Shown piece after piece: positions 129 to 31,480 of a stretch of 33,786 nucleotides of DNA. Under the pieces are notes generated by a model, which made no database searches, had not been told where the DNA came from, and saw only the letters and a program-made list of their open reading frames with translations. Made by a program: the position numbers and the translations under genes. Every line of letters begins with the position of its first letter. Within the stretch, counting starts at the first letter, position 1. The DNA is from Solirubrobacterales bacterium (GTDB lineage Bacteria; Actinomycetota; Thermoleophilia; Solirubrobacterales; 70-9), in assembly GCA_019456285.1 (NCBI GenBank), contig VRUE01000008.1, positions 15,171-48,956 on the forward strand. The letters run 5' to 3'.

Positions 129-956
129 ATGGACGGCACGCGGAGCGTGAGCAGCATCACCCCCTTGGCCCGTGCGCCCTCGGCACGGAGCGGGCCGCCT
201 GCCGGTGCTCCTCGCTCCGGGCCGGCGTTCAGCGACGAGTTCGCCTGGCGCCTGGACAGGTTCAACAAGTTTCTGCTGGCCGCCTCGCCCGTGGTGCGCG
301 TCACGGCTGGTGTCGGGAGGGAGGTGTGTCGCGCGCTCGGCTTTTCGCGGGTGGCGTTCCTGCACGCCGACTTCAACGTCCGGCGGGTCAGGGGCGGCGC
401 CGGCTACGGACTGGACTCGTCGCTTCTCCGCCGCGTCAGCGAGCCGTTCGAGTCGAGCCCCTGGATCGAGGACTGCGCGGCCAACGGACGGCCGGGGTTC
501 ACGCTGAACGTGAGGCATGGTCCGGCGATTCCGATGAAGTACGTCGAGCTCTTCAAGCTCGGCCCGCTGCTTTGCGTTCCGGTGATCGACAACACCGGTC
601 CCGTGGCTGTGATGCTGCTCGACCGTCGCGGCGCGTTCTTCGGGGTCACCGGCGAGCTGCTGAGCGCAGCTGCGTCCGTGGGCGAGAGCCTCGGCTTGGC
701 GCTCGAGGCGGCGAGGCACTACGGCGGCCGAGGCGCGGGATGGGAGGAGGCCCCGGTCCTATCCCCGCGGCAGCGCCAGGTGCTGACCCTTCTGAGCCGG
801 GGCCTGTCGAACAAGGAGATGGCCACGGCCACCGGCCTGAGCGTGTTCACGGTCCGCGACTACGTGTCGAGCCTGTTGCGCTGCCTCGACGTCGGCAACC
901 GCTCGGCCGCGGTCGCCCGGGGCTGGGAGCTGGGGCTGCTCGGCGTCGATCCATGA
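129..956 (+). CDS. LuxR-family transcriptional regulator (GAF-like N-terminal region plus C-terminal HTH)
   Basis: C-terminal LSPRQRQVLTLLSRGLSNKEMATATGLSVFTVRDYVSSLLRCLDVGNRSAAVARGWELGLL is a typical LuxR HTH; N-terminal region reads like a GAF sensor. Confidence 0.85.
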   Translation: MDGTRSVSSITPLARAPSARSGPPAGAPRSGPAFSDEFAWRLDRFNKFLLAASPVVRVTAGVGREVCRALGFSRVAFLHADFNVRRVRGGAGYGLDSSLLRRVSEPFESSPWIEDCAANGRPGFTLNVRHGPAIPMKYVELFKLGPLLCVPVIDNTGPVAVMLLDRRGAFFGVTGELLSAAASVGESLGLALEAARHYGGRGAGWEEAPVLSPRQRQVLTLLSRGLSNKEMATATGLSVFTVRDYVSSLLRCLDVGNRSAAVARGWELGLLGVDP

Positions 957-1000
957 CCGAGGGGCGGCCCCTGCGGCAACGCGGGTCCTGCGATGCCGGC

Positions 1001-1014
1001 CCTACAAATGTCGG
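1001..1014. promoter_or_regulatory. Candidate operator CCTAC-AAAT-GTCGG upstream of the first alpha subunit
   Basis: Imperfect 5-N4-5 inverted repeat; near-identical element recurs at 3991-4004. Confidence 0.35.
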
Positions 1015-1119
1015 ATTCAAAAGCAGGCTCGCGTGCTCTTGTATCTGTGGCAGCAGCGGGGCCCGGGCGATGGTCGCTGCGGGCAACGGTGACCAAGCCA
1101 GTACACGGAGGTGACGCGG

Positions 1120-3972
1120 ATGAGCTCCAAGGCGACCAGCTCTCGCTCACGCCGCTCGCGCCGAGCGGTGAGGGCCGAGGACTCCTACTCGGGTGTCGCG
1201 GATCTCTACAAGGAGAAGTGGACCTGGGACAAGGTCGCCTGGGGCACGCACTGCGTCGACTGCTATCCGGGCAACTGCCCCTTCTTCGTCTACGTCAAAG
1301 ACGGCATCGTCTGGCGCGAGGAGCAGGCGGGGACCTTCACCCAGATCGAGGAGGGGATCCCCGACAACAACCCGATGGGCTGCCAGAAGGGGGCCGCCTG
1401 GAGCCAGCAGCTCTACAGCCCCGACCGCCTGATGCACCCGCTCAAACGCGCCGGCGAGCGCGGCTCCGGCAAGTGGAAGCAGATCTCGTGGGACGAGGCG
1501 CTGACCGAGGTCGCCGACGCCCTCATCGACACGATCCGCGAGGACGGCCCGGAGTCGATCATCCGCGAGGGAACCCCCGAGATCGCGGCGGTGACCGAGG
1601 CCCAGCGGTTCCTGGACATGATCGGCGCCGTCACCACCGACCTCAACGGCTCGATCAACGACTTCGCCTCGGGCCTGTACGAGACCTACGGGAAGTTCAA
1701 CGGGGTGTCGGAGATCGGTGACTGGTTCAACTCCGAGCTGGTCCTGATCTGGCACATGAACCCGGCGTACACGCGCATTCCCCACTTCCACTTCGTGGCC
1801 GAGGCCCGGTACCACGGCGCCGAGGTGGTGTCGATCGCGCCCGACTACAACGCCTCCGCGATCCACGCCGACGCCTTCATGCCCGTCCGCCCCGGCACCG
1901 ACGCCGCACTGGCGCTGGCGGCCTGCCAGACGATCATCGAGGAGGGGCTCCTCGACCGCGGGTTCGTCGTCGAGCAGACCGACCTGCCCCTGCTCGTGCG
2001 CGCCGACACCAAGCGCTTCCTGTGCGCCAGCGATCTCGACGCGGACGGGCTCGAGGACCAGTTCTACTGGTGGGACAGCGGCGAGGGCGCCCTCGCCGAG
2101 GCCGGGCGCGGCAGCCTCGACCTCGGCGGCGTCGACCCCGCGCTCGAGGGCGCCTTCGAGGTCGAGCTGCCCGGCGGCGAGCGGGTCGAGGTCACACCCG
2201 TCTTCGAGCTGCTGAAGGCGCGCCTGAACGAGCACTACACGCCCGAGCAGGCAGCCGACATCTGCGGCATCGACGCGAACGACATCCGCTGGCTTGCACG
2301 AAAGGTCGCCCAGCGGCGCACGAACATCATGATGGGCTACAACTCGATGAAGAACTACCACGGCGACCTGATGGAGCGCTCGATGGCGCTGCTGCTGGGC
2401 CTGACCGGCAACTGGGGCAAGCACGGCACGGGCACGCGGTGCTGGTCGACCGGCCTGCTCGACGGCATCGCGATCGCGATGGCGAAGGAGCAGCCCGGGC
2501 TCGAGGGCGCCCAGCAGGTGATGGTGTCGGCGCTGGGCACGATCGAGGAGACGCTCGCCGAGGACCCATCCCTGACGCCGGAGCTGGCCATGATCGAGTT
2601 TCAGAAGCAGGTCGCGCAGGGTCTCGGCGGATTCTCGGGGGGCATGGGGGAGAACGTCGTGCCGGCGGCCTTCTTCTGGTACTACCACTGCGGCTACCGC
2701 GAGGTCTGGAACCGGCGGGAGTGGAGCGACCCGGCGATGAGCCGGCCGTTCGACGATTACGTCGAGGAAGCGTTCGACAAGGGCTGGTGGGGCGAGCTGC
2801 CCGAGCTCGCCGAGCGCGCCGAGCCGCGGGTTCTGATCGAGTGCGGCGGGAACATCCTGCGCCGCACGCGCGGCGGCACGACGATGCTGCTCGAGCACCT
2901 CTGGCCGAAGCTGAAGATGATCGTGACCGTGGACCTCCGCATGAGCATGACGGCGATGCACGCCGACATCGTGCTTCCCGCGGCCAACCATTACGAGAAG
3001 ATCGGCTTCCACATCCCGACCCCGCACCTGATGAACGCGACCTTCTCCGACAAGGCGGTGGAGCCCGCCGGCGAGGCCAAACCGGAGTGGGAGATCTTCC
3101 AGCTCCTCGCGCGCAAGGTGAGCGAGCGCGCCAAACAGCGGGGGCTCACCGAGTACCGCGACTGGAGGGGGAACAAGCTCGACCTCGGCACGCTCGGCGA
3201 TCGCTACACGCTGGACGGGGCGCTGGAGGACGAAGAGACCCTGTTCGACGACATACTGCGCGACACGGGGCTCTCCGGCGCGCTGCCGGCCGGCACCAAC
3301 CTCGAGACGATGCGGGAGCACGGCCACGTCCGCTTCGTCGACTGGGGGCTCTCGCCGATGGCGCTGGCCCAGGCATCGGACGTGAAGGCCGACGAGGTGC
3401 ACGTGCCGTTCCGCCGCCACACCGAGCAGAAGGACCCCTACCCGACGCTGACGCGTCGCGCCCAGTTCTACCTCGAGCACCCGTGGTTCTTCGAGGCGGA
3501 CGAGGCGCTGCCGCGGCACAAGGAGCCACCGAAGATGGGTGGCAACTACCCGCTGCATGTCACCTCGGGACACATCCGCCACTCGATCCACGCGATGAAC
3601 ATGACCAACCCGGTCCTCCTGCAGACGCACCGCGGCCACCCCTTCTGCTTCCTCAACCCGCAGGACGCCGCCACACGCGGCATCGACGACGACGAGGAAG
3701 TCAAGGTCTTCAACGACTTCGGCTCCTACCAGGTGCCGGTGAAGATCGCTTCGTCGGTGAGGCCCGGCCAGATAATCCTCTACAACGGCTGGGAGCCGTT
3801 CATGCACAAGGGCTGGAAGGGCGGCAGCGACGTCGAGCCCGGGATGGTCAAGTGGCTTCACTTCGTCTCCTACGGCCACCTGAGCTTCTGGCCGGCGCAG
3901 TGGCAGCCGGTGCCGTTCGACCGCGGCGTGTACGTCGAGGCCGAGAAGGTCGTCGAGCCGGTCGAGGCCTGA
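1120..3972 (+). CDS. Molybdopterin oxidoreductase alpha subunit, class II DMSO reductase family (ethylbenzene dehydrogenase / nitrate reductase-like)
   Basis: N-terminal WGTHCVDCYPGNCPF..MGCQKGAAW Fe-S motif; NarG-like DWFNSELVLIWHMNPAYTRIPHFHFVAEARYHGAEVVSIAPDYN; C-terminal molydopterin-binding region. ATG 1120 preferred over GTG 1111 because GGAGG lies at 1107-1111. Confidence 0.9.
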   Translation: MSSKATSSRSRRSRRAVRAEDSYSGVADLYKEKWTWDKVAWGTHCVDCYPGNCPFFVYVKDGIVWREEQAGTFTQIEEGIPDNNPMGCQKGAAWSQQLYSPDRLMHPLKRAGERGSGKWKQISWDEALTEVADALIDTIREDGPESIIREGTPEIAAVTEAQRFLDMIGAVTTDLNGSINDFASGLYETYGKFNGVSEIGDWFNSELVLIWHMNPAYTRIPHFHFVAEARYHGAEVVSIAPDYNASAIHADAFMPVRPGTDAALALAACQTIIEEGLLDRGFVVEQTDLPLLVRADTKRFLCASDLDADGLEDQFYWWDSGEGALAEAGRGSLDLGGVDPALEGAFEVELPGGERVEVTPVFELLKARLNEHYTPEQAADICGIDANDIRWLARKVAQRRTNIMMGYNSMKNYHGDLMERSMALLLGLTGNWGKHGTGTRCWSTGLLDGIAIAMAKEQPGLEGAQQVMVSALGTIEETLAEDPSLTPELAMIEFQKQVAQGLGGFSGGMGENVVPAAFFWYYHCGYREVWNRREWSDPAMSRPFDDYVEEAFDKGWWGELPELAERAEPRVLIECGGNILRRTRGGTTMLLEHLWPKLKMIVTVDLRMSMTAMHADIVLPAANHYEKIGFHIPTPHLMNATFSDKAVEPAGEAKPEWEIFQLLARKVSERAKQRGLTEYRDWRGNKLDLGTLGDRYTLDGALEDEETLFDDILRDTGLSGALPAGTNLETMREHGHVRFVDWGLSPMALAQASDVKADEVHVPFRRHTEQKDPYPTLTRRAQFYLEHPWFFEADEALPRHKEPPKMGGNYPLHVTSGHIRHSIHAMNMTNPVLLQTHRGHPFCFLNPQDAATRGIDDDEEVKVFNDFGSYQVPVKIASSVRPGQIILYNGWEPFMHKGWKGGSDVEPGMVKWLHFVSYGHLSFWPAQWQPVPFDRGVYVEAEKVVEPVEA

Positions 3973-3990
3973 GCCGGATCGGCGGTTGCC

Positions 3991-4004
3991 CCTACGGATG
4001 TCGG
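3991..4004. promoter_or_regulatory. Candidate operator CCTAC-GGAT-GTCGG upstream of the gamma subunit
   Basis: Shares CCTAC-N4-GTCGG architecture with 1001-1014; extended arms CCCTAC/GTCGGG match 5 of 6. Confidence 0.35.
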
Positions 4005-4061
4005 GTGGTCGATGCGCCGTGCCGCTGGTACGACTTAAAGGGTCCGAGACGAAGGAGTCCA

Positions 4062-4745
4062 ATGGAGGCGAAACGACTCACAGGGGCGCTGTCCGAACCA
4101 GGCGCAAGCGTCTGGGAGGAGGCGCCGGTGGAGCATGTGGCACTTGCCGCGGCCCCGCTGGCCGAGCAGCCGTCCCGCTACGTAAGAACGGCTTGGGCCG
4201 AGCGGCCCTACGGTTTCGTGCGCGACCTGCGGGCCCACGCGGCCCATGACGGCGAGCGCTTCTATCTGCGGCTGGAGTGGTCGAGCCCGACCCTCGAGGC
4301 CCGCGAGGCGGAGGAGGATCCGTTCTCGAACCCGATCGAGGGCCCGGACGCGTTCCCGGACTCCGTCGCGGTGATGTTCCCGTCGGGCGAGGGGGCTGAG
4401 CTCGACACGAAGGGCTCCGACGAGGCTCCGGTCGGGATCTGGCGCTGGGCGGAGGGTATGCCGGAGGCGGTCGAGGACCTCCTGGCCACCGGCCTGGGCA
4501 CGCTCCGCCCGGCCAATGGCGATGGCGGCGGCGGTGATGATCTGCGGGCGCGCTCGGGCGCCGACGGGTCGCGGTGGCAGGTCGTCTTCGGACGGTCGCT
4601 CGCCTCCGAGCGGGACGCGACGCCGCAACTCGCGCCCGGCGAGACGATCCGGGTCGCCTTCGCCGCATGGGCGGGGGCGAACCAGGAGAGGGGCGGCATC
4701 AAGTCCTACTCACAGCGCTGGATCGACCTGGCGCTCGAGCAATAA
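4062..4745 (+). CDS. Heme-b-type gamma subunit (EbdC / DMSO reductase class II gamma-like)
   Basis: Lies between alpha and beta genes; contains FPDSVAVMFPSG and C-terminal GGIKSYSQRW regions as expected for an EbdC-like heme b subunit; AAGGAG ribosome-binding site upstream of ATG 4062. Confidence 0.75.
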   Translation: MEAKRLTGALSEPGASVWEEAPVEHVALAAAPLAEQPSRYVRTAWAERPYGFVRDLRAHAAHDGERFYLRLEWSSPTLEAREAEEDPFSNPIEGPDAFPDSVAVMFPSGEGAELDTKGSDEAPVGIWRWAEGMPEAVEDLLATGLGTLRPANGDGGGGDDLRARSGADGSRWQVVFGRSLASERDATPQLAPGETIRVAFAAWAGANQERGGIKSYSQRWIDLALEQ

Positions 4746-4756
4746 GGAGCGATCGC

Positions 4757-5815
4757 GTGAATGCACCGGAGAAAGCCAAGCTCGAGCACCAGCTCGCGAT
4801 GGTGTTCGACCTCAACAAGTGCATCGGCTGCCAGACGTGCTCGGTCGCGTGCAAGGTTCTGTGGACGCGCGACGAGGGGATGGAGCATCAGTGGTGGGCC
4901 ACCGTCAACACGCAGCCGGGCAAAGGCACCCCGAAAAACTGGGAAGAGATGGGCGGCGGTGAGCGCGGGGGCGCCCCCGTGGCCGGCCATCTTCCGACCA
5001 AGGAGGAGTTCGGCGGCGGCTGGGAGTACGACTTCGACCGGCTCTTCTACGGAGGCAAGGGCTCAGCGGAGACGCTGCGGCCGACGAAGGGCGCGCCGGA
5101 GTGGGGGCCGAACTGGGACGAGGATCAGGGCGCGGGCGAGTACCCCAACTCCTACTACTTCTACCTGCCCCGGATCTGCAACCACTGCACGAACCCGGTC
5201 TGCATGGAGGCCTGTCCGCGTGGGGTCATGCACAAGCGGCCCGAGGACGGAATCGTCCTGCGCGACGAGGATCGCTGTCGCGGCTACCGGTTCTGCATGG
5301 AGGCCTGCCCTTACAAGAAGATCTATTACAACCACGTCCGCAACATCGGGCAGCAGTGCATCTTCTGCCTGCCGCGGATCGAGCAGGGAGTCGCGCCGGC
5401 GTGCGCGCGCCAGTGCCCGTCGCGCCTGGTGTTCGTCGGCTTCCTGGACGACAAGAGCGGACCGATCCACAAGCTCGTCAACGAGTGGAAAGTCGCACTG
5501 CCCCTCCACCCGGAGTACGGCACGAGCCCGAACGTGTTCTACGTCCCGCCGCTGTCTCCCCACCGGCTCAAGCCGGACGGCTCGATGGACACGTCAGCGC
5601 CCCGGATCCCGATCGAGTACCTGGAAACGCTGTTCGGCCCGCGCGTCGGCGCGACGCTCGACAAGCTGAAAGCCGAGCTGGACGGGGTGCGCAACGGAGG
5701 CAGCTCGGAGATGCTCGACACGCTGATCGCCTATCAGTGGCAGTCGCTGTTCGGCCCGTTCACGGAGGATCCGGCCGAGCTGGCGAAAGCCGAGTCGGCG
5801 AACGGAGGCGAGTGA
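4757..5815 (+). CDS. Fe-S beta subunit of class II DMSO reductase family (NarH/EbdB-like)
   Basis: KCIGCQTCSVACKVLW, CNHCTNPVCMEACP, DRCRGYRFCMEACPYKK, CIFCLPRIEQGVAPACARQCP cluster motifs; GTG start at 4757 after AAGGAG. Confidence 0.9.
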   Translation: MNAPEKAKLEHQLAMVFDLNKCIGCQTCSVACKVLWTRDEGMEHQWWATVNTQPGKGTPKNWEEMGGGERGGAPVAGHLPTKEEFGGGWEYDFDRLFYGGKGSAETLRPTKGAPEWGPNWDEDQGAGEYPNSYYFYLPRICNHCTNPVCMEACPRGVMHKRPEDGIVLRDEDRCRGYRFCMEACPYKKIYYNHVRNIGQQCIFCLPRIEQGVAPACARQCPSRLVFVGFLDDKSGPIHKLVNEWKVALPLHPEYGTSPNVFYVPPLSPHRLKPDGSMDTSAPRIPIEYLETLFGPRVGATLDKLKAELDGVRNGGSSEMLDTLIAYQWQSLFGPFTEDPAELAKAESANGGE

Positions 5816-5816
5816 G

Positions 5817-6527
5817 ATGTTCGGGTTCTCGCTGCGCGGGCTGGACATCGAGGAAGCGGGCGTCGACGGGCTCAAGGAGCCGGAGGGCGGGCCGGACGTC
5901 GCGCGCAGCAAGTGCTACGCGCTGCTCGCCTCCGGGTACAACGTGCCCGACGAGGAGCGCTTCCGCGAGCTCGTCGGCGGGGAATTCGCGGCAGCGCTGG
6001 GCGAGCAGCGCGGCGAGCTGCCCTACGAGCTCGAGCTGGCGATCGACCCGGTCCCGGCCGAGCAGTCGCACGATGACTTCCAGGCCGAGTTCCTGGGGCT
6101 GTTCGAGGTGGGGGCGGGCGGGCCGCCCTGTCCGCTCTACGGCGGCGTCTGGGGCGCGGACCGGATGAAATCGATGGAGGAGGTCGCTCGCTTCTACAAC
6201 TACTTCGGGCTGAAGCTCGCCGACGATCGCCGGATCCCGCCCGATCACCTCGCGACCGAGCTGGAGTTCCTGCACTACCTGACCTTTCGCCAGGCCGCCT
6301 CGCCACTGGAGCAGCTGGCGGCGCCGTACCGCAGGGCGCAGCTCGACTTCATCGAGCGGCAGCCCGGCGCCTGGGTGCCGAAGCTCAAGGAGCGCCTCGA
6401 CGGGCTCGAGGCCGCCGCCTTCTTCACCAGCCTGGTCGATGCCACCGCACGCTTTCTCGAGGCTGACCACAGGCACCTGACCGAGGAAGCCGGGTCTTCC
6501 AGCGCGCCGGCGTCGGCGGGGCGTTGA
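5817..6527 (+). CDS. TorD/DmsD-like molybdoenzyme assembly chaperone
   Basis: Helical protein with Y..LA.GYN.P and DDFQAEFLGLFEVG..GPPCPLYGGVWG region; sits between beta and second alpha. Confidence 0.75.
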   Translation: MFGFSLRGLDIEEAGVDGLKEPEGGPDVARSKCYALLASGYNVPDEERFRELVGGEFAAALGEQRGELPYELELAIDPVPAEQSHDDFQAEFLGLFEVGAGGPPCPLYGGVWGADRMKSMEEVARFYNYFGLKLADDRRIPPDHLATELEFLHYLTFRQAASPLEQLAAPYRRAQLDFIERQPGAWVPKLKERLDGLEAAAFFTSLVDATARFLEADHRHLTEEAGSSSAPASAGR

Positions 6528-6544
6528 GACGCTAGCCCGCGAGC

Positions 6545-9349
6545 ATGGAGCGCTACCGAGAGCGGCTTCGATTCGAGAAGGTCTCGTGGGGTACGCACTG
6601 CACCAACTGCCTGGCGATGTGCCCGTACAGGGTGTTCACAAAGGACGGGAAGGTCGTCTACGAGGAGCCCGCGGGCGGCTTCGAGCAGGTCGAGGAGGGC
6701 GTCCCCGACATGAGCCCGATGAGCTGCCAGAAGGGCGCCGCCTGGAGCGCGAAGCTCGACGCACCCGATCGGCTGCTGTACCCGCTGGTCCGCGAGGGCG
6801 AGCGCGGCTCGGGCCGCTGGAGGCGGGTCAGCTGGGACGAGGCTCTCACCACCGTCGCCGACGCGGTCATCGACACGATCAAGGAGGAGGGCTCGGAGTC
6901 GGTCGTGTTCGAGGAGACGACCGAGGGCGGGCTCATCTGCTGGGCTTCCTACCTGCGCTTCGCCTCGATGATCGGCGCGATCAGCCTGGACGGCAACGGC
7001 CTCATCAACGACTTCTTGATCGGCCAGTACCTCACCTTTGGCAAGTACAGCATGGCCTCTTCGGTCGATGACACGTTCCACTCGAAGCTGATCCTGATCT
7101 GGCACTCGAACCCGGCCATGACCAACATCCCGTATCACCACTACATCAGCGAGGCGCGCTATCACGGCGCCGAGGTCGTCAACATCGCACCGGACTACAA
7201 CCCCTCTTCGCTGCAGGCCGACCTCTACGTGCCGGTCGAGCCCGGGACGGACGCGGCGCTGGCGCTCGGCATGTGTCAGGTGATAGTCGAAGAGGGGCTT
7301 GCCAACCTCGAGTTCGTCAAGGAGCAGACCGACCTGTCGCTGCTCGTTCGCACCGACAACGGCCGCTTCCTGCGGGCGGCGGACGTGCAGGAGGACGGCT
7401 CCCAGGAGCAGTTCTACTGGTGGGATGCCGAGGGTGGCCTGGTGGAGGCCGGGCGCGCGACGCTTGAGCTTGGCGGCGTGGACCCGGTTCTCTCGGGCGC
7501 CTTCGCGGTCGAGTTGAAGAACGATGGCCGAGGCGGCGACAGCGAGCCGGCGACGGTCGAGGTGACACCCGCGTTCGCCCTGCTGAAGGCGCGCCTCGAT
7601 GCCCGCTACAGACCCGAGCAGGCAGCCGAGGCCTGCGGCGTGCATCCCGAGGTGATTCGCGACCTCGGGCGCAAGGTGGCGCGCCTGCCCACCAAGATCC
7701 TGGCCGGCTACAACGCGCCGAAGTACTACCACGGCGACCTCATGGAACGAGCGATGGTCCTGCTGCTGGGGCTGACCGGCAACTGGGGCCGCAAGGGCTG
7801 CGGCATACATGGCCTGTGCGTCCTGGGCCCGGACGGTTACTTCCTCTTCCAGCTGAAGCAGAAGGCCGGACTGGCCGAAACGGAGCAGATCGTGGCCGGC
7901 CTCGGCGCGGCGATCGAGGCGGCCAGGGAGAAGAACCCGGGCATAGGCGAGGAGCAGGCCGGCCTGCAGTTCCTGCAGGCCGCCGCGCCGCAGGGCACCT
8001 CGACGCCGCCGATCTTCTTCTGGTACCACCACTGCGGCTACCGGGAGGTGTGGAACAACCGCGAGTGGAACGACCCGGAGATGCCCCGGCCCTTCGACGA
8101 CTACTTCCGCGAGGCGACCGAGAAGGGTTGGTGGGCCGGCCTCGCGCGTCCGGGGCCGGAGTCCGAGCCACGGGTGCTGTTCGGCGTCGGCACCAACACG
8201 CTGCGGCGCACCCGTGGCGGGCGGCGGATGCTGCTCGAGAACCTCTGGCCGAAGCTGCGCCTGATCGTGTCGGTCGACTGGCGGATGAGCTCAACCGGCG
8301 CTTGGTCGGACGTGGTGCTGCCCGCCGCGCCCCAGTTCGAGCGGCCGAATCTCCAGTACCCGCTGACGAACACGTTCCGCCTCAGCTTCTCCGACCAGTG
8401 CGCCGACAGGCAGGGCGAGTCCAAGTCGGAGTGGGAGATCTTCCGCATGCTGTCCGAGAAGGTGGCGGAGCGCGCCGTGGAGCGGGGCTTCACCGAGTTC
8501 CGCGATGGCCGTCGCCAGCCGCGAAGGCTGGACAACCTCGGTGAGCAGTTCACATCCGACGGCGCGTTCGTGGACGAAGAGGCTGTCCTGGACGAGTGGA
8601 TCCGCGATTCGAGCGTGACCGGCATGCTGCCCGCCGGCACCAGCCTCGACACCCTGCGGGAGAGCGGGTCGACCAGGTTGACGGGGCTCGGGATCTTCCC
8701 GATGGGCCTCGGGGCGGCCACCGACGTCGCCGAGGATCAGGTGCTGACCGCGTTCACCTGGCATACGCAGAAGAAGGTCCCCTACCCGACGCTCACGCAG
8801 CGCGCCCAGTTCTACATCGACCACCCCTGGTTCATCGAGGCCGACGAGGCGCTGCCGCGCCACAAGGACCCGCCGAAGATGGGGGGCGACTATCCGTTGC
8901 TGGTGACCTCCGGGCACAGCCGCTACTCGGTCCACTCGACCAACATGAGCAACCCGACGCTGCTCGAAACCCATCGCGGCAGCCCGGTCTGCATACTGAG
9001 CCCGCGCGACGCGGAGCGCCGCAAGATCCGCGATGGGGACAAGGTGCTCGTGCACAACGACTGCGGCTCCTACGAGGTGGCGGTGAAACTCTCGCCCTCG
9101 GTGAGGCCCGGGCAGCTGATCCTCTACAACGGCTGGGAGCCCTTCATGCACAAGGACTGGAAGGGCGGCAGCGAGGTCGAGCCCGGGATGATCAAGTGGC
9201 TGCACCTCGTCTCGCGCTACGGGCACCTGCGCTACATGCCCTTCAACTGGCAGCCGGTGCCGAGCGACCGCGCCGTGTATGTGGAGGTGGCGCTGGCGCA
9301 GCAGGGTGAATCCGCAACATCCAACGACCGTTTCAAGGAGGCCGTATGA
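6545..9349 (+). CDS. Second molybdopterin oxidoreductase alpha subunit, paralogue of 1120..3972
   Basis: WGTHCTNCLAMCPYRVFTKDGKVVYEE (H-x3-C-x3-C), collinear with first alpha throughout. Confidence 0.9.
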   Translation: MERYRERLRFEKVSWGTHCTNCLAMCPYRVFTKDGKVVYEEPAGGFEQVEEGVPDMSPMSCQKGAAWSAKLDAPDRLLYPLVREGERGSGRWRRVSWDEALTTVADAVIDTIKEEGSESVVFEETTEGGLICWASYLRFASMIGAISLDGNGLINDFLIGQYLTFGKYSMASSVDDTFHSKLILIWHSNPAMTNIPYHHYISEARYHGAEVVNIAPDYNPSSLQADLYVPVEPGTDAALALGMCQVIVEEGLANLEFVKEQTDLSLLVRTDNGRFLRAADVQEDGSQEQFYWWDAEGGLVEAGRATLELGGVDPVLSGAFAVELKNDGRGGDSEPATVEVTPAFALLKARLDARYRPEQAAEACGVHPEVIRDLGRKVARLPTKILAGYNAPKYYHGDLMERAMVLLLGLTGNWGRKGCGIHGLCVLGPDGYFLFQLKQKAGLAETEQIVAGLGAAIEAAREKNPGIGEEQAGLQFLQAAAPQGTSTPPIFFWYHHCGYREVWNNREWNDPEMPRPFDDYFREATEKGWWAGLARPGPESEPRVLFGVGTNTLRRTRGGRRMLLENLWPKLRLIVSVDWRMSSTGAWSDVVLPAAPQFERPNLQYPLTNTFRLSFSDQCADRQGESKSEWEIFRMLSEKVAERAVERGFTEFRDGRRQPRRLDNLGEQFTSDGAFVDEEAVLDEWIRDSSVTGMLPAGTSLDTLRESGSTRLTGLGIFPMGLGAATDVAEDQVLTAFTWHTQKKVPYPTLTQRAQFYIDHPWFIEADEALPRHKDPPKMGGDYPLLVTSGHSRYSVHSTNMSNPTLLETHRGSPVCILSPRDAERRKIRDGDKVLVHNDCGSYEVAVKLSPSVRPGQLILYNGWEPFMHKDWKGGSEVEPGMIKWLHLVSRYGHLRYMPFNWQPVPSDRAVYVEVALAQQGESATSNDRFKEAV

Positions 9350-10836
9350 ACGACCAGACCCAGGCCGCCACGGCGGGCAACGCGACGTCGATCTCCGAGT
9401 CGGAGCGCGATCAGCTGGGGTGCGCTTTCGATTCCACGCTGCCGTTCTTCAAACTGCTCTCGACGCTGCGCACGCGGCGCGTCGGACTCGGCTACCGCTG
9501 TGAGACCGGCGAGCCGGAGCTGCTGGAGTGGTCGAGCGGCAAGCTCGTCAAGCAGGCGAAGGGGCCGCTCTCATTCGCCTCGGCGCACGACCCGGTGCCG
9601 CTGTCGGAGCTGGAGGAGGCGCTGATCTGCTGGGCGGCCTGTGGGCCGAACGGGATCGCGCTTGCGGACATCCCGGTGCACGGCAACCTCTCGAGCCTGC
9701 TCAGCTGGGTGGGACGGACGGTGCCCGGCGGCGACTCCAACCCGTCGATCGACCTGTTCGTGGTCAACGACCGCGGCACGCACGTCTACCGCCCCGGGGA
9801 GGAGCGGAGCGGCCCGATCGAGATCCGCTCGCCCGAGGACTACCCCAAGGTGCTGGAGTGGTACCGGTCGGGTCTTGTGCAGGTCTCCGACCGCCGCCCG
9901 GACATCGGCTGGCATGCCGCGCCGGAGGACACTCGCTCGGTCGACATGATGAGCCCGGCCCAGTACAACGTCAACCGGCCCGGGAGCACCTGGCTGATCC
10001 CGGTCGGCGACGTCGGGCTGGAGTGGTTCAACCTGCTGTTCTCGTGCTATGAGTGGTGGGGCACATTCCTCGCCAAGCCCGAGGACTTCTCGCCCGCCGG
10101 CTGCGACATCTGGGTGAAGCCGGGGTTCCTGGAGACGGGCTGGCCGATCCCCTCGTTCGACGAGATGGTGTCGTCGGATCACGCCAGCCAGGCCGGCGCG
10201 CTGCTGCAGAACGTGCGGCTGGCGTGCGAGGCGCTCGGGCTGGGAGGCTGGCGGCTGGGGGTCTACTCCAGCGACATGGTGCTCGGGGGTTTCCCCGATG
10301 TCGCAAAGGGGCTCGGCTTCAACTACATGGAACGCGACGTCGAGCGTAACCCGGGCGCGGTGATGACAGCCACCGGCCTGCCGGGGGTGAAGGAGGCGGT
10401 GACGGTGCCCTCGGAGCGGTTCCCCACGGCGGAGAGCGCGGTTCACTACGTCAAGGAGCTGCGCTACCAGCCCGGCGGCCCCCTTGCCCAGGAGCACAAC
10501 TACGCGCTCGAGCACGGCGGGCCCTATAAGCCGGAGGTCATGGAGGAGCTGCTCGAGCACCCGCGCGCTCACATCTCGGCGGAGTGGGTCGAGACGGCCG
10601 TGCTCGAGACCGTGCAGTACATCGTCGACACCTACGGCTGCGCGCCGGCCTTCACGAACCCGTTGCACGCGCACGCCTCGATCCAGGTGCACCATCTCGA
10701 CGCCGACTTCTACCGTCGCTTCCAGGTGTCGGCGAACGGGGGCGGCGAGCCGTATGCGGTCACGCCGCAGATCCACGATCACTTCGCGACCTGGCATCCC
10801 GGCGAGCCGGATCCGTACGCGAAGCGCGAGGGCTGA
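9346..10836 (+). CDS. Uncharacterised 496-aa protein, possibly nitroreductase-fold related
   Basis: ATGA overlap with upstream alpha; segments ALICWAACGPNGIALADIPVHGN and HASQAGALLQNVRLACEALGLGGWRLG faintly resemble nitroreductase-family helices; no confident family. Confidence 0.6.
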   Translation: MNDQTQAATAGNATSISESERDQLGCAFDSTLPFFKLLSTLRTRRVGLGYRCETGEPELLEWSSGKLVKQAKGPLSFASAHDPVPLSELEEALICWAACGPNGIALADIPVHGNLSSLLSWVGRTVPGGDSNPSIDLFVVNDRGTHVYRPGEERSGPIEIRSPEDYPKVLEWYRSGLVQVSDRRPDIGWHAAPEDTRSVDMMSPAQYNVNRPGSTWLIPVGDVGLEWFNLLFSCYEWWGTFLAKPEDFSPAGCDIWVKPGFLETGWPIPSFDEMVSSDHASQAGALLQNVRLACEALGLGGWRLGVYSSDMVLGGFPDVAKGLGFNYMERDVERNPGAVMTATGLPGVKEAVTVPSERFPTAESAVHYVKELRYQPGGPLAQEHNYALEHGGPYKPEVMEELLEHPRAHISAEWVETAVLETVQYIVDTYGCAPAFTNPLHAHASIQVHHLDADFYRRFQVSANGGGEPYAVTPQIHDHFATWHPGEPDPYAKREG

Positions 10837-10837
10837 G

Positions 10838-11371
10838 GTGGACATAGACACCCTGTACGCCGCCCTTCACGACCTGGCCTTCGCCGTCTACATCGGCGGG
10901 CTGTTCTACGCGGAGTTCGTGCTGACGCCGGCGGCGAACGCCGTCGCGCCCGCGCAGGGAGTGGTGGTCAGGCGCAAAGCGGGCGACCGCCAGGCGATCA
11001 TCGCCTGGACCTCGCTGTTCGTGATCCTGATCACGGGAATCCTGAGGCTGGGCCAGCTGCAGATACTCGCCTTCCCGGGCACGTTCTTTCTCGAGCCCGC
11101 CATCGCCTCGACCGGGTACGGTCACACGATCTTCGCGATGTTCGGGCTCTGGTGCGTGCTCGTCGCGCTCGGCCTGGCGATGACGTTCGTGCTGAGGCCG
11201 CTGCTCGTCGGCAAGATCGACCCGACGCTCTCGCAGGAGAAGCGGGAGCAGCGCCAGGAGCGGATGATCGGCGCGGCGCGCTGGATGACGATCTCGCTGC
11301 GCGTCGATCTGCTCGTCGCCGTGGCGGTCGTTGTGCTCGGCGTCTCGCTGCGCTACGGGGGCCTGCTCTGA
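10838..11371 (+). CDS. Small integral membrane protein (about four TM segments, CopD/DUF2269-like)
   Basis: Hydrophobic segments AFAVYIGGLFYAEFVL, IIAWTSLFVILITGIL, TIFAMFGLWCVLVALGLAMTFVL, VDLLVAVAVVVLGVSL; GTG 10838 immediately after the preceding stop. Confidence 0.7.
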   Translation: MDIDTLYAALHDLAFAVYIGGLFYAEFVLTPAANAVAPAQGVVVRRKAGDRQAIIAWTSLFVILITGILRLGQLQILAFPGTFFLEPAIASTGYGHTIFAMFGLWCVLVALGLAMTFVLRPLLVGKIDPTLSQEKREQRQERMIGAARWMTISLRVDLLVAVAVVVLGVSLRYGGLL

Positions 11372-11384
11372 TGGAGGTTTTCCC

Positions 11385-12107
11385 ATGAGCGTCCTCGCGG
11401 TCCAGCTCGAGCGCCCCGGCGCGGGGATGATGGAGCTCTCGGCCGGGGCGCTTGCAAGCTACGCGGAGGCGCTCGCCCGCGCCTGGGGCGTGCTTGGCGT
11501 AGGCGGCGACGACCGTGTCGCGATCTACGACTACGGCTCGAGCCCGGCCGCCTACCTCGCCTCGCAGGCGTTCGCCCCCTACCTCGAGCGGGGCGCCGCG
11601 GAGCGTACGCTCGCCACCGCGCTCTGTGTGGACGGCCTGCCTGACAACGTCAAGCGGTTCACGCATGTCCTGCGCCACTTCCAGCCACACTTCGTCTTCG
11701 TTCGAGCCGACCTGGTCCCGCTGCTGGTCGCCGGGCCGACCGCGGTGCCCGTCGAGCAGCGCGCGGCGAGGCTCGTGGTCAGCGCCGACGGCGACGCCCC
11801 CGCGCCTGGAGAGCGTGCGTCCTGGGAGCGCGCCTGGCAAGGCGGCCTTTCGCTGCTCGCTCGCTGCGATGCCGCCGCGTTCGTCGCGGCGGAGTGCCCG
11901 CGCTGCCGGCTGCTGCGCGTGCCGGAGGAGCTCTACGAGGCGCAGATCGCGCCTGCCTCCCGCCCGGGATCGTCAGACGGGGACGAGCGGGGAACGCTCA
12001 CCGTCAGGCCCCGCTTCCTCGACCTGGGCGCCCTTCCCACGGAGCTGAGCGTGTCGCCGCCCGCGCCGGGCGGCCGCTGCTCGCACCAGGGCTTCGCGCT
12101 CGTATGA
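11385..12107 (+). CDS. Short protein resembling part of a phenylacetate-CoA ligase/AMP-binding enzyme, without the core motifs
   Basis: LGVGGDDRVAIYDYGSSPAAYLASQAF..ALCVDGLPDNVKRFTHVLRHFQPHFVFVRADLVPLL; no TSGTTG P-loop, no TE motif; ATGA overlap with next gene. Confidence 0.55.
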   Translation: MSVLAVQLERPGAGMMELSAGALASYAEALARAWGVLGVGGDDRVAIYDYGSSPAAYLASQAFAPYLERGAAERTLATALCVDGLPDNVKRFTHVLRHFQPHFVFVRADLVPLLVAGPTAVPVEQRAARLVVSADGDAPAPGERASWERAWQGGLSLLARCDAAAFVAAECPRCRLLRVPEELYEAQIAPASRPGSSDGDERGTLTVRPRFLDLGALPTELSVSPPAPGGRCSHQGFALV

Positions 12108-13456
12108 CAACGGCGGTGGACAGCATGCCCAGGCGGCGCCGCTACTTTGACGACGTCGAGACGGTGCCCGTCGAGCGCCTCGAGGCCGCGGCGCTGGAAC
12201 GCCTGCGGGAGGTCCTCGAGCGAGCCACACGACTGCCCTTCTACCGCGAGCGCCTCGCGCACCTGGATGCCGCGGCCATCGACAGCTTCGATCGCTTCGC
12301 CGCGACCGCCCCAACCTTCCGCAAGGCGGATCTGATCGCAGAGCTGAGGCGCAGCGGCGGATACACCACCGGCATCGAGGCGTTGGGCGAGGGGGGGGCG
12401 GCTGCGGTCGTGCTGACGTCGGGCACGCTCGGCTTTCCGACCTTCGCGGCGCTCGGCTGGGGCGAGTTCGATCACGGCTCTCCGCGGGAAGTGCTGCGCG
12501 AGTTCTGGATGAACGGCATGCGTCCCGGGATGCGCGTCATGTGCCAGTACCCGGCCTGGCACCACCTCAGCATGCTCGACAACCGGGCCCTGGAGTGGAT
12601 GGGGGCGGAGGTCGTATGTCCCTGGGGAACGTTTGTCCCTCGCTTCGTGGATCAGGCGATCGAGCTGATCGCCGCGCGCCGTCCCGAATACCTGCTCACC
12701 GTCACGACGATGCTGCACGCGATCGTCGAGGAGGCGATCGCGCGAGGCATGGACGTGCTCGATCTGTTCGAGCCGGTGCGCTACGCGATGGTGGCGGGAG
12801 AACCGATGAGCCCCGGCCAGCGCCGGCTGCTGGTCGAGCTGCTCGGCCTGGAGGATCTCTTCGAGCGCGCCGGCTCGAGCGACGGTCTGTGGGGCGGGGC
12901 GGACTGCCCGGCGCACACCGGGCACCATGTGTGGCTCGACCACCACCGGGTCGAAGTGCTCGAGCCGGACACCGGCCGGCCTCTGGAACCGGGCCAGCGG
13001 GGCACGGTGGTGGTGACCAACCTGACCCTGGACCGCTCGCTGTACGTGCGCTTCGACACCGAGGACCTCGGGGAGATAATCCCCGGGCCATGCCCGTGCG
13101 GCCGCACCCATCCACGGGTCGAGCTCTACGGCCGCCTGGCCGATTGCGTGCGCGTCGAGGGCCGCCTCGTCGCCCCCTACGACGTGCGCGCTCACCTGGA
13201 CGAGATTCCCGAGTTGATCGGGGTGCCGCTCGTCGTCGTACGCGAGGGAGCCGAGATGGCGTGTCTGCAGGTGCGCCTGGACGGCGGCAGCCGCACCGAT
13301 GGCCTCGCCGAGGCTGCCACCGAGCACCTCCGGGCGAGCCTGGACCTTCCGGTCGAGGTGCGCTGGGGCGGGCGGCTTCCCAGGCGCTGGAAGGCGCGCA
13401 TGGCCACTGACAACGCGCCCGACCCCATCGGAGGGGGCAAATGGCGAAGACGATAG
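12104..13456 (+). CDS. Phenylacetate-CoA ligase (PaaK-like) family protein
   Basis: VVLTSGTLGFPTF P-loop, AMVAGEPMSPGQRRLL, YVRFDTEDLGEIIPGPCPCGRTHPRVELYGRLADCVRVEGRLVAPYDV, C-terminal RRWKARM. Confidence 0.85.
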   Translation: MTTAVDSMPRRRRYFDDVETVPVERLEAAALERLREVLERATRLPFYRERLAHLDAAAIDSFDRFAATAPTFRKADLIAELRRSGGYTTGIEALGEGGAAAVVLTSGTLGFPTFAALGWGEFDHGSPREVLREFWMNGMRPGMRVMCQYPAWHHLSMLDNRALEWMGAEVVCPWGTFVPRFVDQAIELIAARRPEYLLTVTTMLHAIVEEAIARGMDVLDLFEPVRYAMVAGEPMSPGQRRLLVELLGLEDLFERAGSSDGLWGGADCPAHTGHHVWLDHHRVEVLEPDTGRPLEPGQRGTVVVTNLTLDRSLYVRFDTEDLGEIIPGPCPCGRTHPRVELYGRLADCVRVEGRLVAPYDVRAHLDEIPELIGVPLVVVREGAEMACLQVRLDGGSRTDGLAEAATEHLRASLDLPVEVRWGGRLPRRWKARMATDNAPDPIGGGKWRRR

Positions 13457-14691
13457 CCATCAACCCCTCGTGGTACTGGCCGGACGACGTGCCCCGCTTG
13501 CTGGGGGTGCCGCCGATGTTCTGCGACAAGCTGATGGCGGAGCGCTGGTCGCGCCGCCGGTCCGACGCGACGGCGGTTGCCGATGCCGACAGTGCTGTCA
13601 CATACGCCGAGTTCTGGTCTCGCGCGCAGGCGGTGGCGGCCGCACTTCGGGAGCGGAGCAGCGGCGAGGAGTGCGTGGCGCTGGTGGGACCCGGCGGCGT
13701 CGACGGGCTGGTCGCGCTGATCGGCACGCTCGCGGCGCGCCGGAGGTCGATCCTGCTGGACCCGCGGTCTGAGGCGGCCGGCGAGGCGGCTACGGCGGTG
13801 GGCGCGCATCTCGCCATCGTCCAGCCGCCCGCGCAGGCGCCTGACGGGATCGCGGCAGTCGAGCTCCGCGAGCTGGAAGAGGCCGGCGCCGACGGCGCCG
13901 ACGCTCTCGCGCAGGACGATGCCGGCGCCGTGCGCGACATCCACGAGCCGGCGGTGGACCTGGTGACCGCCGACGGCTGGGTCGCCAGCCAGTCGCACTA
14001 CTCGCTCGTCAGCGGGGCGCTCTCGATGGCGGCGTTCCTCGAGCTCGACCAGGCCGAGGCATGGCTGTGCGCGATGCCGCTGTGGACGTGGGAGGGCCTG
14101 TACAGCGCCTTGGTGGCGCTGTACCTGGGCGGCGCCGCCGTGGTCTGCGGCCCCGACGGCGCGACCGACGAGGTGGCGGACCTGATCGACGATCACAGCG
14201 TCGCCTACGCGCTGGCCCCGTTCGAGATCCTGCGAAACCTGTCGCGCGGTCGGCCGCGCAGACTGGCCGCCAGCCTGAAGCGCAACCTGGACGGCCTGAT
14301 GCTCTCCACAGACCGCCCGTTCGCGGCGATCGACCGGCGCAAGGCGCGCAAGGCGCTGGATGTGCCGATCCTGACCGTGTTCGGGCTCACCGAGACGGGC
14401 CCGATCCTGGCATCGCACCCGAGTTGGTACGTGGACGAGTCGGTCGGCATCCCGGTCACGAACGTCGAGGTGCAGCCCGTCAACCCCGAGACGGGCGAGC
14501 CTCTCGACACCAACTGGGAGCTGCTCGACTACGCCAGGATGGTGATCCGTGCACCGCAGCTGATGGCCGGGTACGAGGGGCCCGCGGCAGAGGACGAGCG
14601 CCTCTCCTCGCGGCTCGAGGATGGCTGGTTCAAGACGGGGGCGTTGGCGTCGTTCGACGCCAACGGCATGATGTACCTCGTGGAGGGCTAG
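13441..14691 (+). CDS. AMP-binding acyl-CoA synthetase-like protein, apparently degenerate and lacking the C-terminal lid domain
   Basis: TVFGLTETGPILASHPSWYVDESVGIPVTNVEVQPVNPETGEP is typical; P-loop replaced by TADGWVASQSHYSLVSG; TGD is TGA in GWFKTGALASFDANGMMYLVEG, where the protein ends. Confidence 0.75.
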   Translation: MAKTIAINPSWYWPDDVPRLLGVPPMFCDKLMAERWSRRRSDATAVADADSAVTYAEFWSRAQAVAAALRERSSGEECVALVGPGGVDGLVALIGTLAARRRSILLDPRSEAAGEAATAVGAHLAIVQPPAQAPDGIAAVELRELEEAGADGADALAQDDAGAVRDIHEPAVDLVTADGWVASQSHYSLVSGALSMAAFLELDQAEAWLCAMPLWTWEGLYSALVALYLGGAAVVCGPDGATDEVADLIDDHSVAYALAPFEILRNLSRGRPRRLAASLKRNLDGLMLSTDRPFAAIDRRKARKALDVPILTVFGLTETGPILASHPSWYVDESVGIPVTNVEVQPVNPETGEPLDTNWELLDYARMVIRAPQLMAGYEGPAAEDERLSSRLEDGWFKTGALASFDANGMMYLVEG

Positions 14692-14721
14692 CGTGCCCTT
14701 GGCGCCAGACAGCCCTCCACG
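14679..14721. promoter_or_regulatory. 11-bp perfect inverted repeat (CGTGGAGGGCT / AGCCCTCCACG) spanning the ligase-like stop codon
   Basis: Arms 14679-14689 and 14711-14721, 21-nt loop containing GGCGCC. Confidence 0.5.
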
Positions 14722-14739
14722 CCTTACAGGGGAGACGGC

Positions 14740-15921
14740 ATGATCAAGATCTGCGTTCCGAGCCGCTTCGAGCCCGAGCTGCTGGACATCCTCGAGCCGC
14801 TGCAGCGTGAGACCGGCCGCATCCACGAGATCTATGGCTCGCTGTCGCGCTCGGTGATCGGGAGCGGCCGCCCGGCGCGCCGGCTCGCCCAGCAGGGCGG
14901 CTCACCGACCTTCGCCGACGTGCGGCGCTTCACCGAGCGTGCCCACGACTCGGGCATCCGGGTCAACTACCTGCTCAACTCGGCGGTGCTCGACCACACC
15001 GAGTACACGCGCGCCGGTCGCGAACGGATCCTGGACTACGTCGGCGAGGTGACCGACGCGGGCGTGGACATGGTGACGATCGCCGTGCCCTACCTGATCG
15101 AGCTGGTGCGCAGCCGCTTTCCCGAGCTGCCGGTGAGCGTCTCCGTGATCTGCGAGGTGGCCGACACCCATAGCCTGCGTCTCTTCGAAGGCTTCGGCGT
15201 GCAGCGGGTGCAGCTCGCCGAGGAGTGCAACCGCGATCTGCCGCTGCTCGAGTCGCTGGCCGAGACCGCCGGCAGCGAGCTGTCGCTCGTGGTCAACAAC
15301 GGCTGCCTGCGCTTCTGCGCCCACCGCTCGTACCACCACACGTTGTGCACGCAGGGCTCCCGGAGCGACAGGCCCGACCACGGCTACATCGACTACCCCC
15401 TGCTCAAGTGCTCCGCCGAGCGGGCACGTCACCCGGTGGAGCTCCTGCGCTCACCCTGGATCCGCCCCGAGGACCTGCGTTACTACGGGGAGCACTTCGG
15501 CATCGAGCTGTTCAAGCTCGCCGGCCGGCAGCTGCCGCTGGCCAACATCGCGACGATGGCCACCGCCTACGCGCACCTGGGCTACGACGGCAACTTCCTC
15601 GATCTGCTGGCCACCCCGGCGGTCAACTTCGCGCGTCACCCGATGACGGCCGGCCTGGCCGCCGCACGCGGGCCCGACGGCTTCGAGACTCCGGACCTCC
15701 ACATCGACAACGCGCGGCTGGGCAAGCTGACGCGCGCTCTTCACGCCCGTGGAGGTTGCGGCGGGGCACGCGACTGTGAGGAGTGCCGCCTCTGCGACAC
15801 GATGATGCCGCAGGTGATCGGCGCTGACGATCCCGCCGCGCGGATCGAGCACGCAGAGGTGCTGGAGGGACTGATCGGAGAGCTCGCGGACGGATCCTGG
15901 TGCACGGCGGAGGAGCCCTAG
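14740..15921 (+). CDS. Peptidase U32-family protein (UbiU/UbiV-like Fe-S architecture)
   Basis: VQLAEECNRDLPLLESLAE, VNNGCLRFCAHRSYHHTLC, YPLLKCSAER; extra C-terminal CGGARDCEECRLC. Confidence 0.75.
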   Translation: MIKICVPSRFEPELLDILEPLQRETGRIHEIYGSLSRSVIGSGRPARRLAQQGGSPTFADVRRFTERAHDSGIRVNYLLNSAVLDHTEYTRAGRERILDYVGEVTDAGVDMVTIAVPYLIELVRSRFPELPVSVSVICEVADTHSLRLFEGFGVQRVQLAEECNRDLPLLESLAETAGSELSLVVNNGCLRFCAHRSYHHTLCTQGSRSDRPDHGYIDYPLLKCSAERARHPVELLRSPWIRPEDLRYYGEHFGIELFKLAGRQLPLANIATMATAYAHLGYDGNFLDLLATPAVNFARHPMTAGLAAARGPDGFETPDLHIDNARLGKLTRALHARGGCGGARDCEECRLCDTMMPQVIGADDPAARIEHAEVLEGLIGELADGSWCTAEEP

Positions 15922-15971
15922 AAGCTCGATGTGGGTTATCCAGGCGTGTTCTCGGCTATAGCCTGTCGGGC

Positions 15972-29510: not shown

Positions 29511-29584
29511 GGGGCGGTAGCTCAGCTGGTCAGAGCAGCGGACTCATAATCCGTCGGTCGAAGGTTCGAGTCCTTCCCGCCCCA
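29511..29584 (+). tRNA. tRNA with CAT anticodon, probably elongator tRNA-Met (Ile2 not excluded)
   Basis: GGGGCGG...CCGCCCC acceptor, anticodon loop CTCATAA, T arm GAAGGTTCGAGTCCTTC. Confidence 0.88.
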
Positions 29585-29595
29585 CTAGCAAAACC

Positions 29596-29607
29596 GCTCT
29601 ATAGAGC
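29596..29607. repeat. 12-bp perfect palindrome GCTCTATAGAGC just downstream of tRNA-Met
   Basis: Direct reading; a related TAGAGCG half-site follows ~10 nt downstream. Confidence 0.6.
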
Positions 29608-29642
29608 CAAGTAGTTTAGAGCGATTCGGCACGAACTACCGA

Positions 29643-29666
29643 AATTGGTCCCGAATTGGTCCCGAA
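29643..29666. repeat. 11-bp tandem repeat (AATTGGTCCCG)x2 between tRNA-Met and integrase
   Basis: AATTGGTCCCGAATTGGTCCCGAA, read directly. Confidence 0.7.
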
Positions 29667-29688
29667 ACGCGCTAGAATTCGGGGACCG

Positions 29689-30855: not shown

Positions 30856-30862
30856 CGCCGGC

Positions 30863-31072
30863 CTAGCGGCGGCGTCGCGTCCCATAGGTGTTCTCGGCGA
30901 TCCAGCCCCTTAGATCGGAGCGGGTGAACCTCAGCCCGCGCTCACCGATCCGAACGTGCGGCAGACCCCGCGAGCGGACCAGCTCGTAAACCGTGCTGCG
31001 AGGGATGTGAAGAAGCTGCGCCGCCTCGTCGGCGGTCAGCAAGGACTCGGTGGGGGCCGCAGCGTTTGGCAT
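30863..31072 (-). CDS. Excisionase-family helix-turn-helix protein
   Basis: SLLTADEAAQLLHIPRSTVYELVRSRGLPHVRIGERGLRFTRSDLRGWIAEN. Confidence 0.85.
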   Translation of the reverse strand: MPNAAAPTESLLTADEAAQLLHIPRSTVYELVRSRGLPHVRIGERGLRFTRSDLRGWIAENTYGTRRRR

Positions 31073-31233
31073 ATGTCTCTGCTCCTGCTGTCCACTGAGA
31101 GCGCCCATTGCAACGGATACGTCAGAAAAGCGCGGCCAACGCCCCCGCTTTTTCGGTGGCGCGCGGGGAGGCGGCGGGGAACCTAGCGAGGCCAAGAGCC
31201 AGAGCCAGTCAGAGACAAAGCCACCGAATCGCT

Positions 31234-31306
31234 CAGCGAAAAGCAGCCTGAAAGGCAAGAAGCACCCAGCCACGCAGCAATCCCTCACGGCAGCGAAAAG
31301 CAGCCT
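31234..31306. repeat. 16-bp direct repeat CAGCGAAAAGCAGCCT in A-rich non-coding region upstream of the relaxase
   Basis: Copies at 31234-31249 and 31291-31306. Confidence 0.75.
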
Positions 31307-31480
31307 TGAGCCACCCCCCAAGGCCCCACAGCAACAGCCAACAGCACCACCCCTCACGCACTATCACTGAAGTGAATCTCCGGGGGCGTTTGCGCCTCCA
31401 GCCTGACGTCTCTGGCGATGCGCTCTCCATCGCCGCCGCCCACCGATGCCCGCCGCCCCCCAGACAGGCGGGGGGGCTAG

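Follow-up and report, generated by a model that had tools for sequence, protein, structure and literature searches.

The stretch of DNA analysed here (the window, 33,786 nucleotides) makes up the right-hand portion of contig C137 in a 2.1-Mb draft genome of a Solirubrobacterales bacterium, a single metagenome-assembled genome (MAG). Twelve co-directional genes on the + strand at window positions 129–15921, from a LuxR-type regulator to a U32-family protein, form a horizontally acquired operon that probably encodes a real pathway. The genes are as follows, with lengths in amino acids (aa):

129..956, + strand: LuxR-type regulator with GAF domain, 275 aa (Pfam GerE 42.9 bits, GAF_2 29.7 bits)
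1120..3972, + strand: alpha1, class II dimethyl sulfoxide (DMSO) reductase-family catalytic subunit, 950 aa (TIGR03479, 923.9 bits)
4062..4745, + strand: gamma, heme b subunit, 227 aa (TIGR03477, 144.7 bits)
4757..5815, + strand: beta, multi-cluster iron-sulfur (Fe-S) subunit, 352 aa (TIGR03478, 475.7 bits)
5817..6527, + strand: delta, dedicated chaperone, 236 aa (TIGR03482, 151.2 bits; Pfam Nitrate_red_del)
6545..9349, + strand: alpha2, second class II catalytic subunit, 934 aa (TIGR03479, 842.7 bits)
9346..10836, + strand: U496, predicted nitroreductase-like protein, 496 aa (PF00881 in relatives; Foldseek)
10838..11371, + strand: small membrane protein, CopD/DUF2269-like, 177 aa (Pfam CopD E 3.7e-6, below cut-off)
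11385..12107, + strand: A240, predicted PaaK-like core without catalytic motifs, 240 aa (hhalign, Foldseek, conservation)
12104..13456, + strand: PaaK-type adenylate-forming ligase with intact motifs, 450 aa (Pfam AMP-binding; PDB)
13441..14691, + strand: degenerate AMP-binding protein, 416 aa (Pfam 102.5 bits; alignment; PDB)
14740..15921, + strand: U32-family protein, 393 aa (Pfam PF01136, 44 bits)

Gene calls and domain searches bore out this run of luxR, alpha, gamma, beta, chaperone, alpha, 496-aa, membrane, ligase-related and U32 genes, which had been described in an earlier note made from the sequence alone; gamma and beta are present as claimed there, with their coordinates corrected to those listed. 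The few-base overlaps that it had reported were also found (4 bp between alpha2 and the 496-aa gene, 4 bp between the 240-aa and PaaK genes, 16 bp between the PaaK and AMP-binding genes). Non-overlapping gaps among the structural genes are 1–89 bp, with 89 bp between alpha1 and gamma, and luxR is separated from alpha1 by 163 bp; a GTG at 1111 is a possible alternative start for alpha1. Promoter and terminator scans gave no convincing signal splitting the operon, and the Rfam search returned tRNAs only. A LuxR regulator occupies the equivalent position in two other loci (L050 and L066).

The left flank and the DNA from about window position 15958 align with G001 and G002, two genomes of the same genus, at roughly 80–88% identity, and in both genomes the flanks lie ~150–190 bp apart. 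The corresponding distance in the same-family genome G010 is ~140–190 bp, and G345 also has a clean empty site between conserved flanking genes. Because same-genus genomes have an empty site there, the operon is one acquired unit of ~16.2 kb; the insertion extends from about window −221 to 15958 (C137:14950-31128), almost exactly luxR to U32, and has a guanine-plus-cytosine content of 68–72% versus 72–76% in the adjoining 8 kb. These limits, with which the range 129–15921 proposed earlier agrees, are therefore natural boundaries and remove the concern of an assembly artefact. No tRNA lies within the island, and neither an integrase nor an obvious direct repeat was noticed at either end. The sampled members of the genus and family contained no 496-aa orthologue, two of them having matches at 28–29%. 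Chance adjacency of unrelated units in one MAG, or misassembly, would draw on the single draft genome and on the two gaps bordering alpha1, but both flanks are the host genus's own, the site is empty in G001 and G002, and the same set occurs in several genera and phyla; this explanation is very improbable and largely refuted.

Recurrence was followed with a cassette defined as the membrane protein, the 240-aa protein, the PaaK ligase, the AMP-binding protein and often U32. The 240-aa protein is present in 5 of 399 genomes of the class (G000, G042, G232, G345 and G369), six (those five and G127) have an alpha at E ≤ 1e-140, and a class II alpha adjoins the 240-aa gene in all five of its bearers; the chance of full overlap is ~7e-11 if genomes are assumed independent, which they are not. 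Orthologous alpha2, 496-aa, membrane, 240-aa, PaaK, AMP and U32 genes occur in identical order in L048–L051, from Solirubrobacteraceae and related MAGs (the L048 contig stops inside the AMP gene). The arrangement in G042 and G051 is beta-alpha-AMP-240aa-PaaK-U32-membrane-CofH/MqnC-like. Two Chloroflexota loci (L081 and L139) have alpha-membrane-240aa-PaaK-AMP followed by U32 on the opposite strand, and six genomes of the class holding a 'Deltaproteobacteria' MAG (L117–L122) have alpha-AMP-240aa-PaaK-U32-membrane, with tandem alphas where the contig permits. The alphas of G042 and G051 (39%) were rejected as cassette-free controls, one of the two in each genome having the cassette.

Because other genera, families and phyla have the same gene content in nearly the same order, the gene set is beyond chance, and because the set recurs together in several distant bacterial groups, it probably encodes a real pathway. 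The earlier note had named recurrence of 496-aa, degenerate-ligase and U32 genes with the alphas as support for a system, and such recurrence was observed; alphas lacking the downstream genes in nearly all genomes, which it would have counted against a system, were not seen in the 399-genome survey. Its proposal of an undescribed system is supported. The cassette is not dedicated to this molybdoenzyme: it also occurs with other alpha lineages, or with no class II alpha nearby.

The 496-aa protein was rejected as a hallmark of the system: distant copies occur in many unrelated settings, including Rhizobium and Haladaptatus plasmids, and genomes of another family of the class carry several each, making the 240-aa protein the better marker. 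Distant relatives in L014, L015, L016 and L018 (Haladaptatus, Rhizobium and Rhodobacter plasmids) lie among peroxidase, tyrosinase and arsenic genes unrelated to the operon. At L055:5958-11386 a class II alpha bearing a twin-arginine translocation (Tat) signal stands back to back with a 496-aa homologue, the remaining cassette not being adjacent. The plasmid search for U32 and 240-aa proteins returned no match. Two genes resembling phytoene desaturases and amine oxidases dependent on flavin adenine dinucleotide (FAD) lie on the opposite strand upstream of gamma at L048:23-3943, L049:685-4519 and L066:7230-11064; in L066 they sit between alpha1-type genes and gamma, and an extra alpha1-like paralogue is present.

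For alpha1 and alpha2, gamma, beta and delta the best matches were TIGR03479, TIGR03477, TIGR03478 and TIGR03482, respectively, with all scores below the curated cut-offs by 1–142 bits. The two alphas are 57% identical. Ethylbenzene dehydrogenase (EbDH) is the nearest solved enzyme for both alphas, beta and gamma (alpha1 versus EbdA of 2ivf, phmmer 756 bits; beta versus EbdB, 2ivf_B, 411.9 bits); membership of the EbDH equivalog NF042978 was rejected, at 801.4 (alpha1) and 719.4 (alpha2) versus a cut-off of 2000 bits. An Asp in each alpha aligns with the molybdenum-ligand Asp223 of EbdA, and the FS0 region near the alpha N-terminus has His and Cys residues (residue numbers counted by eye); EbdA Lys450 is kept in both window alphas when the alignment is read by eye. 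The roles of Asp223, Lys450, His192 and Trp481 of EbdA are those known from the EbDH structure. Alignment of gamma with EbdC showed the Met of MFP and the Lys of K-SYS to be conserved, and in EbDH-type gamma subunits heme b is ligated by Met and Lys (PMC8840923).

A maximum likelihood tree of alphas, built with EbdA, PcrA and ClrA as references (thin sampling, several long branches), provided the placement within class II that the earlier note had called for: the window alpha1 and alpha2 clades group with EbdA and not with ClrA/PcrA, with support 88/86. The G042/G051 and 'delta' alphas form a clade of their own on a long stem, and one alpha type from Chloroflexota falls elsewhere. Because cassette-linked alphas fall in separate clades, the cassette has become linked to, or has remained with, three or more alpha lineages. 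A respiratory reductase for chlorate, perchlorate, selenate or nitrate, followed by unrelated genes, would belong to the same enzyme class (ClrA is ~36% identical to alpha1), but the grouping with EbdA, the conservation of the downstream set and the lack of a chlorite dismutase or cytochrome c gene within the island make this quite improbable.

Inspection of N-termini found no Tat signal in alpha1, alpha2 or their close orthologues, and no signal peptide was seen in gamma; the alpha of L055, a more distant relative, does carry a Tat signal. Since described EbDH-type enzymes are periplasmic (PMC8840923) and the window alphas, unlike them, have no such signal, the alpha/beta/gamma complex is likely cytoplasmic, export by another route being possible. 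Alpha2 presumably shares beta and gamma with alpha1.

The earlier note had counted three adenylate-forming-related proteins; their relatedness held, and the motifs are kept in the PaaK-type protein (12104-13456) only, the other two being degenerate. The 450-aa ligase matches PaaK-like ligases in the PDB at E 1e-43, with the P-loop, Arg302, Asp307 and Arg330 (aligned-stretch numbering) invariant in 36 rows; the PaaK equivalog was rejected for it (64.7 versus 646 bits). The 240-aa protein matches the cassette's own PaaK family (hhalign E 1.8e-6), and its model, with a predicted local distance difference test score (pLDDT) of 81, matches PaaK1 (2y27) in Foldseek at E 4.5e-9; conservation analysis found DYGSSP and a conserved Cys present and the adenylation motifs absent, so that it is predicted to be a PaaK fold or core without catalytic motifs. 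The 416-aa protein has neither a P-loop nor a C-terminal domain (alignment, PDB matches). Two of the three ligase relatives (240-aa and 416-aa) thus look catalytically dead.

The U32 protein exceeds the PF01136 cut-off of 22.4 bits, matches PDB 5d88 at E 2e-12 and has invariant Cys at 189, 193, 224, 340, 346, 349 and 352 in 18 of 18 aligned rows, from which two Fe-S sites are predicted. The UbiU and TrhP equivalogs were rejected for it (NCBIfam, 18.6 and 25.5 bits, far below cut-offs). Group 6 of the U32 family in PMC6747719 (reference D5MIQ1; Cys poorly conserved) may include the operon's U32 type. The membrane protein has a near-invariant His11 near its N-terminus and an invariant Trp105 (42 aligned rows). 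The 496-aa protein, earlier treated as a featureless unknown, is predicted to be nitroreductase-like: Pfam matched PF00881 (Nitroreductase) in 7 of 12 family members and not in the window protein itself, profile searches also reached nitroreductases, and an AlphaFold 2 model of modest quality (predicted template modelling score 0.74, pLDDT 69) had nitroreductases as its best Foldseek matches (probability 0.99, E 6e-3, above 1e-3, with low template modelling scores).

The tight linkage of the cassette to class II alphas in all five 240-aa-bearing genomes of the class would also suit a set of genes that mature or anchor the molybdoenzymes, acting as chaperone and membrane dock with the dead ligases as binding proteins. 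MoaA and NarM-like genes accompany the set in L117–L120, and alphas without a Tat signal may need an unusual partner. Against such a role, no class II alpha lies near the cassette in L052, L053, L057, L105, L107, L109–L113, L115 or L116, the PaaK member keeps its catalytic motifs, and a dedicated delta chaperone is already encoded; we consider it improbable.

The neighbours of the cassette vary. Six loci (L057, L085, L105, L115, L116 and L142) have it in nitroreductase/CoA-transferase/496-aa/thiolase clusters with no class II alpha nearby (CoA, coenzyme A), and L084 has a partial set in a nitroreductase/CoA-transferase/thiolase-type cluster; FixC/FixX-like genes also occur among the CoA-transferase, thiolase and nitroreductase neighbours, which together resemble a beta-oxidation-like setting. 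One genome, G434, holds both versions (L105/L121): alphas accompany one of them and CoA-transferase/nitroreductase genes the other. The closest match of the CoA-transferase-like protein is glutaconate CoA-transferase, followed by 5mzw (glutaconate CoA-transferase family) and then by the 6co6 type, an order that does not support a substrate inference; an IpdAB-type ring-opening hydrolase, as a clue to steroids, was rejected. In L117–L120 the alphas and cassette are followed by MoaA, DUF1329, NarM-like and CofH/MqnC-family radical S-adenosylmethionine (SAM) genes, and SCP2 (sterol carrier family) and FAD oxidoreductase genes precede them in L117, L118 and L120.

Such constancy of the cassette amid changing neighbours (three alpha lineages, a CoA-transferase set, a bc complex) could also be explained if it makes or tailors a lipid-soluble, quinone-like redox carrier or cofactor, with the molybdoenzyme as one client. 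This main rival is rather unlikely. In its favour, membrane-240aa-PaaK-AMP genes adjoin Rieske/cytochrome b genes in seven genomes (L107–L112 and L114; incomplete on short contigs), three UbiD-family decarboxylase genes and an O-methyltransferase gene adjoin the cassette at L112:2322-8925, and CofH/MqnC-family radical SAM genes lie in or near L085, L115–L122, L144 and L147. The U32 proteins UbiU and UbiV hydroxylate quinone precursors (PMC6747719). All radical SAM copies score below the MqnC cut-off, however, and a true MqnC (menaquinone) in the cassette was rejected; no prenyltransferase was noticed in the cassettes, and the sole CofH-family match in the window genome is FbiC-sized. Since the sampled members of the genus and family lack the gene set, no lineage-essential carrier depends on it.

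We tentatively favour, at somewhat less than even chances, an O2-independent oxidation (hydroxylation) of a hydrophobic compound followed by acyl-adenylate/CoA activation, which fits the role suggested in the earlier note. The two EbDH-like alphas would share one beta/gamma pair and one chaperone and would act in the cytoplasm, using water to hydroxylate C-H bonds, electrons passing through the Fe-S chain to heme b and on to a carrier, perhaps via the small membrane protein. A further redox step would be performed by the nitroreductase-like protein, a putative flavoprotein; the PaaK-type enzyme, complexed with its two dead relatives, would adenylate the resulting acid and form the CoA ester, and the U32 protein would add a second, Fe-S-dependent O2-independent hydroxylation. 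The cassette would be the constant part, the first attacking enzyme differing between organisms. This reading is supported by EbDH being the nearest solved enzyme, by the grouping of the alphas with EbdA and by cassettes adjoining class II alphas from three or more lineages; its CoA-activation step is supported by the adenylation motifs of the ligase, and its second hydroxylation by the characterised U32 relatives, which are O2-independent hydroxylases (PMC11574389, PMC6747719). The SCP2, DUF1329, thiolase, CoA-transferase and FixC-like neighbours point to lipophilic substrates and CoA esters.

Several observations weigh against it. Genes for an aldehyde or alcohol dehydrogenase, for a transporter or for beta-oxidation are missing from the island; neither alpha retains EbdA His192, and Trp481 is kept in alpha1 only (by eye); the seven U32 cysteines, arranged as CX3CX30C plus CX5CX2CX2C, are spaced unlike those of known U32 hydroxylases; and the cassette also stands beside bc-complex genes with no recognised catabolic gene nearby. 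It is possible, though doubtful, that there is a mobile system in which one active and two inactive adenylate-forming proteins work as one machine together with the small membrane protein and a novel kind of U32 enzyme, for which two Fe-S sites are probable. Such a machine would convert the products of varied O2-independent oxidations (by several molybdoenzyme lineages or CoA-transferase/nitroreductase sets) with chemistry unlike described pathways.

Compared with known systems, the operon resembles EbdABCD of Aromatoleum aromaticum (2IVF) and the steroid C25/C26 dehydrogenases in its alpha/beta/gamma/delta composition, molybdenum-ligand Asp, FS0 region and heme b Met and Lys. It differs from these enzymes, whose described members are periplasmic (PMC8840923), in its Tat-less alphas, in having two alphas per beta/gamma pair and in a downstream cassette not described for them; in the steroid C25/C26 pathway two molybdenum hydroxylases act in sequence, and Thauera aromatica K172 has served as host for the steroid enzymes (PMC7411048). 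The 450-aa protein shares fold and adenylation motifs with PaaK-type phenylacetate-CoA ligases and 2-hydroxyisobutyryl-CoA synthetase, but is accompanied by two motif-less relatives. UbiU/UbiV, TrhP and RlhA likewise have a U32 domain and conserved Cys suggesting Fe-S binding, in the motifs CX6CX15CX3/4C or CX6CX16CX38C (PMC6747719, PMC11574389). The clusters named 'Magic' and 'Nanopod', which have been proposed to activate benzene anaerobically, likewise combine redox proteins of anaerobes with an AMP-binding protein that is undescribed, and share DUF1329 with L117–L120, but comprise other gene families, with no class II molybdoenzyme or U32 named (PMC13101534); elsewhere, growth on phenanthrene suffered when one DUF1329 gene was deleted (PMC13101534).

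No description of the gene combination was found in the open literature, in agreement with the earlier note's statement that characterised relatives are not known to be described with this set; 'undescribed' is provisional because the coverage omits most subscription journals. The molybdoenzyme is a variant within a known class, and the cassette may be more than that. Few enzymes are known to hydroxylate C-H bonds without oxygen, and those described from class II are periplasmic. If the favoured reading is true, a version of the class II-type hydroxylase without export signals exists in groups that include actinobacteria and Chloroflexota, and is linked to a conserved cassette. What had been an anonymous neighbourhood thereby becomes a defined unit that can be transferred, has clear limits and offers parts open to testing: the acid activated by the PaaK-type ligase, the role of the dead ligases and the hydroxylase activity of U32.

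Elsewhere in the window, positions 29511–33763 hold a tRNA-Met followed by an integrase-like open reading frame (29656–30855) and a 760-aa open reading frame (31481–33763) that is relaxase-like by eye; the contig end may carry a second integrative element with no relation to the operon.

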